Shown in pieces: positions 38,609 through 55,387 of a stretch of 64,000 nucleotides of DNA. The DNA lies in the NCBI RefSeq assembly GCF_029024305.1, contig NZ_CP118974.1, positions 1,178,001 to 1,242,000 on the forward strand. The letters run 5' to 3'. The notes under the pieces are model-generated. The model was not told the DNA's origin and searched no databases. It was given only the letters and a program-made list of their open reading frames with translations. This DNA is from Mammaliicoccus vitulinus (GTDB taxonomy: Bacteria; Bacillota; Bacilli; Staphylococcales; Staphylococcaceae). Within the stretch, counting starts at the first letter, position 1; every line of letters begins with the position of its first letter. Position numbers and translations under genes: made by a program.

Positions 38609-40654
38609 TTGTTGAAACGAGTAAAAAAGAAATCTAAAGAAGAAGCATTTCGCCTTTTAATGAATAAACGTGTAAGCCTAATATTAGCAGTTGTAGTCAT
38701 CTTATTTTCTGTGCTTATAATGCGACTAGGCTACTTGCAAATAGTTAAAGGCGGAGAATATAAACGGACAATAGATAGTACTGAATCAATTACAGTAAAC
38801 GAGTCAGTGCCGAGAGGCCGTATTTATGATAGAAACGGCAAGGTTTTAGTAGATAATGAATCTAGAAAAGCTATTACATATACAAGAGATAGGAGAACAA
38901 GTCAGGATGACATTTTAAAAATCGCTGAAAAACTATCTCATTTAATGAAAATGGACACATCTAATATTACAGATAGAGATAAACAAGATTTTTGGATTTT
39001 AAGAAATCAAGATGAAGTTCAAAAGTTAATGAAAGATGAACAAGCTTTATTCTCAGATGGGAATATAAGCCAAGAAGATTATGATGAAGCATTATATAAA
39101 AAAGTGACTTCTAAATACACAAATACTTTATCGAAAAATGATTTGCAGATTTTAGCGATTTTCAGAGAAATGAATGCAGGTTCTCAACTTAGCCCGGTAG
39201 TTATTAAAAATGAAGGTGTTAAAAACGACGAGTATGCAGCTGTTTCGCAACACTTATCAGAATTACCTGGCGTTAACACAACGATGGACTGGGAAAGACG
39301 CTATCCATACGGAGAAACTTTAAGAACATTATTTGGTAATGTATCAAGCAAAGAAGAAGGATTACCGAAAGAACTTGTTAATGATTATTTAACTAAGGGC
39401 TATTCAAGAAATGATAGAGTAGGTAAATCATACTTAGAATATCAATACGAAGATATATTAAAAGGTTCTAAGAAAAAAATGAAATACGTGACAGATAAGT
39501 CAGGTAAAATAACAAGCTCAGAAGTCATTTCTGAAGGTTCAAGAGGTAATGATCTCGTATTAACAATAGATATAGAATTACAGAAAAAAGTTGAAGAATA
39601 TGTCGATAAGCATATCGAGTCATTACGCGATAAAGGCGCGAAAGATATGGATAGAGTCATGGTTGTTGTTCAAGACCCTAGAAATGGTGATGTTTTAGCA
39701 ATGGCAGGTCGTGATATCGATGAAAACGGTAAAATCACAGATAATCATATTGGGAACTTTACAAGTCAATATACAGTAGGTTCTTCTGTCAAAGGTGCTA
39801 CATTACTCGCTGGTTATCAAAATGGCGTACTTGATGTTGGAGATACGATGGTCGATGAACCACTAAAATTCAACGGTGGATTAACGAAGCGTTCTTATTT
39901 CAACCAAGATGGTAAAAAAACAATCACTGATGCCGAAGCATTAATGCACTCATCAAACGTATTCATGTATAAAACAGCGCTTTTATTAGCAGATTCACCA
40001 TATAGAAGTGGCATGTCATTGCCATCAGATGTTGAACAAGCAGGTATTAAATTACGCAAAGGTTTAAATCAAGTAGGATTAGGTGTAAAAACTGGTATTG
40101 ACTTGCCAAACGAGTCTGCAGGTCAAATAGAACCCATTAAAGATAATCCAGGTAACTATATTGATTTAGCAATAGGACAATTTGATACTTATACGCCAAT
40201 ACAACTTTCACAATATGTAGCAACAATTGCTAATGATGGATATAGATTGAAACCACATTTAGCAAAAGAAATTAGAAATTCTACTAACGAAGACGCACTT
40301 GGACCTATTAAAAAATCATTTAAAGGCGAAGTGATGAACAAAGTTAACAATAGTGATAAGGAAATTAAACAAGTTCAAAAAGGTTTCGATATGGCATTCA
40401 ATAAAGAAGAAGGAACGGGTTATTCAAGCTTTAATGATACAGTTGTTAGATCAGCAGGTAAAACAGGTACAGCTGAAGTATTTAAAGACGGAAAACCAAA
40501 AGTAAATTCAACTTATATTGGGTATGCACCAGCTAAAAACCCTGAATTGTCATTTTCTATTACTTATACGAACCAACCAGTACCAGAACCGTGGTTACCA
40601 GGTGGAGATTTAGGTAGAGATATCATAAACTACTATTTTAAAGATAGAAAGTAA
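38609..40654 (+). CDS. pbp3: Class B penicillin-binding protein 3 (transpeptidase)
   Basis: 681-residue cell wall transpeptidase, closely resembling S. aureus PBP3. One N-terminal membrane anchor (about 22-45), the dimerisation domain starting ESVPRGRIYDRNGKVL, and a catalytic domain with SVKG (serine nucleophile) near 394, SSN near 449 and KTGTAE near 619. Start is TTG at 38609 (a second TTG follows) behind AAAGGTAGG. The sodA-pbp order is conserved in Bacillales. Confidence 0.93.
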   Translation: MLKRVKKKSKEEAFRLLMNKRVSLILAVVVILFSVLIMRLGYLQIVKGGEYKRTIDSTESITVNESVPRGRIYDRNGKVLVDNESRKAITYTRDRRTSQDDILKIAEKLSHLMKMDTSNITDRDKQDFWILRNQDEVQKLMKDEQALFSDGNISQEDYDEALYKKVTSKYTNTLSKNDLQILAIFREMNAGSQLSPVVIKNEGVKNDEYAAVSQHLSELPGVNTTMDWERRYPYGETLRTLFGNVSSKEEGLPKELVNDYLTKGYSRNDRVGKSYLEYQYEDILKGSKKKMKYVTDKSGKITSSEVISEGSRGNDLVLTIDIELQKKVEEYVDKHIESLRDKGAKDMDRVMVVVQDPRNGDVLAMAGRDIDENGKITDNHIGNFTSQYTVGSSVKGATLLAGYQNGVLDVGDTMVDEPLKFNGGLTKRSYFNQDGKKTITDAEALMHSSNVFMYKTALLLADSPYRSGMSLPSDVEQAGIKLRKGLNQVGLGVKTGIDLPNESAGQIEPIKDNPGNYIDLAIGQFDTYTPIQLSQYVATIANDGYRLKPHLAKEIRNSTNEDALGPIKKSFKGEVMNKVNNSDKEIKQVQKGFDMAFNKEEGTGYSSFNDTVVRSAGKTGTAEVFKDGKPKVNSTYIGYAPAKNPELSFSITYTNQPVPEPWLPGGDLGRDIINYYFKDRK

Positions 40655-40702: not shown

Positions 40703-40748
40703 AAAAGAGCGTAAATTCTTATTTTCGAAGAATTTACGCTCTTTTTAG
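40703..40748 (+). terminator. pbp3 terminator
   Basis: AAAAGAGCGTAAATTCTT with AAGAATTTACGCTCTTTTT; perfect stem of about 18 bp directly before the tandem array. Confidence 0.9.
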
Positions 40749-40749
40749 T

Positions 40750-41019
40750 TTGTTTGGTAAGTCTTGCAACATACGGACCTTCTATGTTGCTTGTTTGATC
40801 AGTCTTGCAACATACGGGCCTTCTATGTTGCTTGTTTGGCGAGTCTTGCAACATACGGGCCTTCTATGTTGCTTGTTTGGCAAGTCTTGCAACATACAGA
40901 CCTTCTATGTTGCTTGTTTGGTAAGTCTTGCAACATACAGGCCTTCTATGTTGCTTGTTTGATCAGTCTTGCAACATACAGACCTTCTATGTTGCTTGTT
41001 TGATTAGTCTTGCAACATA
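40750..41019. repeat. 41-bp tandem repeat array of hairpin units
   Basis: Six complete units and a partial one, with an exact 41-bp period (GTCTTGCAAC at 40761, 40802, 40843, 40884, 40925, 40966, 41007). Each unit has a perfect inverted repeat GCAACATA-N9-TATGTTGC, so the transcript could form six hairpins. Variation is limited to the loop (C-A/G-G-A/G-CCTTC) and a 4-base linker. 41 is not a multiple of three, so coding is unlikely. It is not a CRISPR array: there are no unrelated spacers. Confidence 0.95.
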
Positions 41020-41044
41020 TAGCATGTACTTAAAAGAACAAACG

Positions 41045-41094
41045 AAAACATATGACACTACTTACAAATATCAGTAATGTGATATGTTTTTTTA
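41045..41094 (+). terminator. Terminator-like hairpin after the tandem array
   Basis: AAAACATAT (41045-41053) pairs with ATATGTTTT (41082-41090), with inner pairing around CACTACT/AGTAATGTG, then Ts. Oriented to end a plus-strand transcript coming from the array. Confidence 0.55.
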
Positions 41095-41163
41095 TTTTGA
41101 GTGGATCATGATATCTCCATAGTATACATACGTTTCACTCTTATTCCACTTGTATTTGTCCTC

Positions 41164-41261
41164 ACGATTTTGTGAAGTGCTGACGTCCGGGGGAATAGTA
41201 TGCGAGAGAGACTACAGGCTCGAACCATATTCATAAGGCAAGCATGCACAAACAAAATCGT
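41164..41261. repeat. Dispersed long-hairpin element, copy A
   Basis: Ends ACGATTTTG and CAAAATCGT are inverted. Inside, GTATG/CATAC-like and CGAG/CTCG arms enclose the segment AGAGACTACAGG, which is identical in copy B at 60802-60896. About 22 bp to the left of the element is also similar between the copies. It lies between the tandem array and the Pho box of pstS; the rest of 41095-41363 shows no gene. Confidence 0.85.
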
Positions 41262-55224: not shown

Positions 55225-55246
55225 GCTTATATATTTGCGAATGATC

Positions 55247-55387
55247 AAAGTTAGAGAGAATGAATGTAATATTCATCGCCGAAGGAGCAAGCCATATTTG
55301 AGTGAATCTCTCAGGCAAAAGGATAACTTTGTGACGCATTCCTGAAGAGTACTTCAACAGGGTAGCGAAAGCTACCCTGTTTTTTTA
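55247..55387 (+). ncRNA. Singlet glycine riboswitch with terminator, upstream of gcvT
   Basis: The glycine aptamer core is visible: GAGAG, GCCGAAGGAGCAA, CTCTCAGGCAAAAGGA, closed by AAAGTTA (55247-55253) with TAACTTT (55324-55330). Only one aptamer is present; the following GACGCATTCCTGAAGAG resembles the 5' part of a second aptamer that is otherwise missing (ghost). The platform is a terminator, ACAGGGTAGC-GAAA-GCTACCCTGT plus Ts (55357-55387). In B. subtilis glycine turns gcv expression on. Confidence 0.92.

Follow-up and report, generated by a model that had tools for sequence, protein, structure and literature searches.

The spacer between a pbp3-like and a pstS-like gene of Mammaliicoccus vitulinus harbors a tandem array of palindromic units. 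Is this array a local oddity or one copy of a wider family, and which of its features are held constant? The window, that is, the whole stretch of 64,000 nucleotides analysed (contig NZ_CP118974.1, positions 1,178,001 to 1,242,000), contains the following features in and around the array.

38609–40654, + strand: transpeptidase/penicillin-binding protein gene (pbp3-like ORF, 681 aa), upstream of and outside the element; from the ORF list, named by the preliminary description and by synteny
40703–40745, + strand: intrinsic-terminator-like hairpin 3′ of the pbp3-like gene, its end separated from the array by 4 bp (terminator scan)
40750–41019, + strand: array of seven framework copies TTGTTT-N4-AGTCTT and six complete 25-bp palindromes GCAACATA-N9-TATGTTGC, period exactly 41
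41012–41048, + strand: 3′ module, made up of the last left arm GCAACATA and TAGCATGTACTTAAAAGAACAAACGAAAA, common to 32 of 40 arrays (flank comparison)
41049–41094, + strand: imperfect hairpin CATATGACACTAC...GTAATGTGATATG, then a T run; also found after the 3′ module at locus L008 (sequence and flank comparison)
41163–41261, + strand: second dispersed repeat of about 96–99 bp with inverted ends (ACGATTTTGTG...AACAAAATCGT), found after the 3′ module in 19 of the 40 arrays of this genome
41463–42416, + strand: phosphate-binding lipoprotein gene (pstS-like, 317 aa), downstream of and outside the element; from the ORF list and Mammaliicoccus orthologues, its name taken from the preliminary description and fitting the sequence

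TRF reports a period of 41, 6.6 copies, 93% matches and 0 indels at 40750–41019, confirming the six complete units and the exact 41-bp period of the preliminary description. Each unit begins with the framework TTGTTT-N4-AGTCTT, followed by the palindrome GCAACATA-N9-TATGTTGC. As had also been claimed, the inverted repeat is perfect in all six complete units, with the palindromes at 40766, 40807, 40848, 40889, 40930 and 40971. A partial seventh unit at 40996–41019 consists of the framework (TTGTTTGATTAGTCTT) and the left arm. The linkers across the seven framework copies are GGTA, GATC, GGCG, GGCA, GGTA, GATC and GATT, the first base being always G. The variable bases of this array are two in the loop and three in the linker; the earlier count for the loop stands, and that of four for the linker is corrected to three.

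The element possesses the 3′ module, no recognisable 5′ module is present, and it adjoins the pbp3-like terminator. Orthologues of the pstS-like protein in Mammaliicoccus fleurettii and M. sciuri share 96% and 93% identity with it, respectively. An Rfam scan of the window gave no match to the array or to the 96–99 bp repeat; its sole match is a glycine riboswitch at 55241–55336.

Dispersal and terminal modules

The array is a member of a modular interspersed non-coding repeat family and not a local oddity. The genome contains 80 occurrences of the exact palindrome and 0 of its reversed-pattern control, showing that the array is not a product of chance. The genome holds 40 arrays of the GCAA type with 229 unit intervals, and with spacings of 39–43 and 82 covered by the detection, all 229 are exactly 41 bp. 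Of 19 copies of the adjacent 3′ module, 5 are not of the modal length, and the length of the 96-bp repeat is also variable. Arrays reach up to 17 framework copies, with strict spacing.

A search with relaxed arms for the framework pair, spaced at 41 bp, yields 229 matches in this genome, and 42, 39 and 3 in the congeners G003, G004 and G001, respectively. A slightly looser pattern, applied to 108 Staphylococcaceae genomes (100 outside the genus), produced three single outside hits, none of them unit-like. The BLAST-type search for dispersal that the preliminary description had proposed was run on Mammaliicoccus genomes and shows the element to be dispersed, with relatives in six of eight genomes, the present one included, and diverged relatives in 5 of the 7 congeners. 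In G002 and G006 the 41-bp layout recurs in diverged arrays, and profile homologues that keep the architecture occur in G002, G003/G004 and G006 (column permutation, 0/1000). Plasmid and phage collections and viral contigs contain no match to the repeat. Among the hits listed by a literature search of open-licence papers, none describes a 41-bp Mammaliicoccus repeat.

The pbp3–pst site is empty of the array in M. fleurettii and has one diverged unit in M. lentus, and no array is evident there in M. stepanovicii. The corresponding spacer of M. sciuri holds a different tandem array of period 40 (L035 5539–5838). Along the present genome, with some 42 arrays over 2.64 Mb, the interval 1423–1909 kb (~490 kb) has no array among the matches listed.

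Judged by eye from the flanks, the 3′ module (CATGTACTTAAAAGAACAAACGAAAA, with variants) closes 32 of 40 arrays, and a 5′ module, CTGAATGT(T/A)GC, opens about 18 of 40 and is complementary to the GCAACATTCAG form of the 3′ module. The 5′ CTGAATGTTGC and 3′ GCAACATTCAG sequences, looked at as MITE-like terminal inverted repeats, are complementary in some copies.

Conservation, gene context and copy number

The 229 intervals comprise 185 distinct units. Identity reaches 99% or more in about 24 of the 41 columns, and the variation falls in about 12 columns around two dyad centres. Variable positions occur in the loop, in the middle of the linker (N4) and at arm positions 6 and 8, where A and T are the sole alternatives. 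Units differ on average at 3.7 positions within an array and at 5.5 of 41 between arrays, indicating that they are only mildly homogenised locally; the 3′ modules differ at 7.5 of 53, a divergence similar to that between units of different arrays.

The preliminary description saw conserved arms with all else drifting. Over the whole genome that picture is not sustained: the framework bases TTGTTT/AGTCTT/TTC, which are unpaired, vary as little as the arms, and uncompensated exchanges of A and T at arm positions 6 and 8 leave only 79 perfect palindromes out of 244 in this genome. Conservation is nonetheless non-random, as had been proposed, and arm pairs covary between unit types. M. sciuri and G004 have an identical framework with GATAAATA/TATTTATC arms, three pairs being changed on both sides. 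Over 60 distinct units in two hairpin phases, 80% and 83% of the cells are paired versus 72% and 74% after shuffling (0/500, a shuffle count on related units and not a probability). The suggested selection on the hairpin survives only in part: the arms change in concert between unit types, but the framework is equally invariant, two thirds or so of the palindromes are imperfect, and array L064 of G001 is mostly non-complementary with ten framework copies present. RNA fold prediction for the array is strong (z −7.2), as is expected of any palindromic array. Complementarity of the variable loops between mirror-image units was rejected (z 1.6).

Gene context was assigned with a simple ORF caller for 42 arrays, comprising the 40 GCAA-type arrays and two of the GATAA type. 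These lie in 25 convergent, 16 tandem and 1 divergent gaps, and the 197 other gaps in the same stretches include 30 convergent and 61 divergent ones. The convergent excess (25/42 vs 30/197) has a Fisher p of 1e-8 and the divergent deficit a Fisher p of 2e-5. Relative to flanking tandem genes the arrays show no orientation bias (9 same, 7 opposite), a ratio that does not favour the role at transcript level raised earlier. Terminator prediction, which is sparse, places a terminator before the array in 20 and after it in 10 of 66 gene–array pairs, with neither in 38.

A segment of about 10 kb is 99.3–99.96% identical between this genome (L033) and the congener G001 (L062), and judging from this identity it was probably exchanged recently between the species. 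Of the arrays inside it, G001 has one with two units fewer and another with one unit more. The comparison supports a fast change of array length, observed here between two species; copy number had been expected to vary between strains, and the variation itself is borne out at the level of species. Since copy number differed between nearly identical segments, the arrays are candidate loci for VNTR typing in the livestock-associated genus Mammaliicoccus.

Comparison with known repeats and possible explanations

To our knowledge, the STAR elements have been without known function since 2000, and a separate genus with a rigid modular family of its own provides a comparative handle. STAR elements comprise tens of copies in tens of intergenic loci, with units of 40–60 bp, palindrome arms that differ between loci and variable copy number (PMC3532100). 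The organisation of the Mammaliicoccus repeat, with intergenic tandem units, 30–40 loci per genome, species-specific locations and copy-number variation, is like that of the STAR elements of Staphylococcus (Cramton 2000; Purves 2012, PMC3532100). The STAR units read here are also palindromes with differing but matched arms, and dispersed intergenic tandem units with variable copy number, as in STAR, are found in Mammaliicoccus. Despite this common organisation, it is extremely unlikely that the array is a STAR element as described in S. aureus. The GGCCC signature is absent here, and the unit is rigid at 41 bp, whereas STAR spacing varies over 53–59 bp in the loci read. The STAR motif TNTGTTGNGGCCC at 36–48 base intervals gave 0 pairs in 8/8 Mammaliicoccus genomes; among the 108 Staphylococcaceae genomes searched, 11 contain it in pairs, and these belong to one genus. 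Homology to STAR was rejected, as profile searches in both directions, with 38 STAR units, did not rise above permuted or shuffled controls.

By layout alone, the element resembles BOX of Streptococcus pneumoniae, which has the arrangement boxA-boxB(n)-boxC (PMC3049150). Both have terminal modules around a variable number of tandem units, intergenic dispersal, pairable termini and a second small repeat nearby, and distinct 5′ and 3′ modules are found here (5′ in ~18/40 arrays, 3′ in 32/40). They differ in genus, and the 41-bp internal unit found here has two variable blocks. REP/BIME/REPIN sequences are likewise palindromic, extragenic and dispersed, in array-like composites. The Y1-type transposase (PF01797) is absent from the present genome and 6 of 7 congeners, with a Y1-type match in G004 only; REP/RAYT mobilisation is disfavoured, since the present genome has no such transposase. 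A CRISPR array is disfavoured, there being no unique spacers of 20–40 bp and the variable blocks being of 4–6 bases and recurring between units. MIRU and other bacterial VNTR minisatellites are also dispersed tandem units of changing copy number; terminal modules, palindromic layout and two-class conservation probably set the Mammaliicoccus arrays apart.

We favour, with about an even chance of being right, a non-autonomous modular repeat in gene 3′-end spacers whose unit is a phased recognition site on duplex DNA for a putative host factor. In this reading each element consists of a 5′ and a 3′ module with n units between them, all exactly 41 bp long. The fixed columns would be the contacts of a host-encoded factor reading duplex DNA at two dyads per unit, 20.5 bp apart, and this factor would need a fixed spacing that keeps successive dyads in phase while tolerating any sequence at the dyad centres. 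Recombination or slippage inside a locus would alter array length. Hairpin extrusion on single-stranded DNA may occur, probably not as the main constraint. The fixed columns, the variable columns and the concerted arm swaps predict the contacts of such a factor, and the consensus provides a design for probe DNA. In favour of this reading are the uniform 41-bp intervals beside neighbours of variable length, the clustering of variation around the dyad centres, the exchange of A and T alone at arm positions 6 and 8, the covariation in both hairpin phases, the terminal modules, the convergent excess without orientation bias, the profile homologues in congeners and the second 41-bp family described below. 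Against it, column conservation partly reflects the common ancestry of the copies, equal dyad spacing follows trivially from any periodic palindrome, and the hypervariable columns could be hotspots of mutation and need not imply constraint on the others.

The main rival is a small interspersed repeat that resembles BOX or MITE elements, is wholly parasitic and does nothing for the host, a reading which is compatible with most of the evidence and which we regard as possible, if somewhat unlikely. Its invariant bases would be read only by the machinery that copies or moves it, and its 3′-end location would reflect purging from promoters and genes. The modular ends, the dispersal, the species-specific presence, the avoidance of divergent gaps, and the pbp3–pst site that is empty in M. 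fleurettii and occupied by a different array in M. sciuri all agree with this, and the elements BOX, RUP and SPRITE are likewise regarded as parasitic in the literature (PMC3049150). However, no transposase partner was found, the Y1 transposase being absent from this genome, and mobility alone fails to explain strictly spaced arrays of up to 17 framework copies. Improbable, in our judgement, are RNA-level stem-loop arrays transcribed from flanking genes or from a promoter of their own and acting in mRNA 3′ ends, as attenuators or as small RNAs. The predicted fold (z −7.2), the arm covariation, the location near gene 3′ ends and the coverage of S. aureus STAR elements by RNA-seq reads (PMC5294841) point to them; against them, the arrays show no strand bias toward tandem genes (9:7), the array of the window sits after the pbp3-like terminator, predicted terminators precede arrays (20) more often than they follow (10), with 38 of 66 pairs lacking a prediction, the unpaired framework is conserved as well as the stems, and Rfam gives no match.

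A neutral minisatellite, in which a palindromic unit expanded by slippage and arm similarity is due to recent copying, would agree with the copy-number difference between nearly identical segments and with the somewhat greater similarity of units inside one array (3.7 vs 5.5 differences). It is nevertheless very improbable: the 3.7 within-array differences fall nearly all in variable columns, the framework is invariant over 40 separate loci with zero indels in 229 intervals, and slippage fails to explain 40 dispersed loci with common terminal modules.

A second 41-bp family

A second family of 41-bp repeats (AGTTAATCCAAGAC...GTCGTGAGTTAA) is present at seven examined loci of this genome, with 38/38 intervals exactly 41 bp and two variable blocks about 20 bp apart. 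Arrays of this family include the following.

L007 5557–5880: second-family array
L010 3671–3946 and 5437–5853: second-family arrays
L050 10502–10664: second-family array
L052 8876–9233: second-family array
L059 1423–1579: second-family array

Pattern matches number 120 here, 105 in G005 and 11 in G001; in G005 this family is abundant and the first is absent. Homology between the two families was not detected, 436 of 1000 permutations being as good, and their common period could be coincidence. We put forward tentatively, as an unlikely idea, that the two belong to a class of phased dual-dyad DNA arrays of Mammaliicoccus that has not been described before, in which two or more sequence-unrelated families would have converged on one rigid period of 41 bp, their two variable blocks being offset by half a period, read by a putative chromosome-organising or copying protein. 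If two unrelated families truly have one 41-bp architecture, it becomes possible to test why bacterial intergenic repeats adopt the unit lengths that they have.

Two further repeats were seen beside these families. The dispersed 96–99 bp repeat, with inverted ends ACGATTTTGTGAAG...AACAAAATCGT, occurs in 7 of 8 congeners, among them G005, where arrays of the first family are lacking; at least 44 matches occur here (145 candidates, 40 of them scored) and 63 in G001. A 51-bp tandem family containing ATCGCACGATATCTTTTGAGTCTTCGTGCG is found at L016 7890–8050, L053 5640–5868 and L058 4160–4363.
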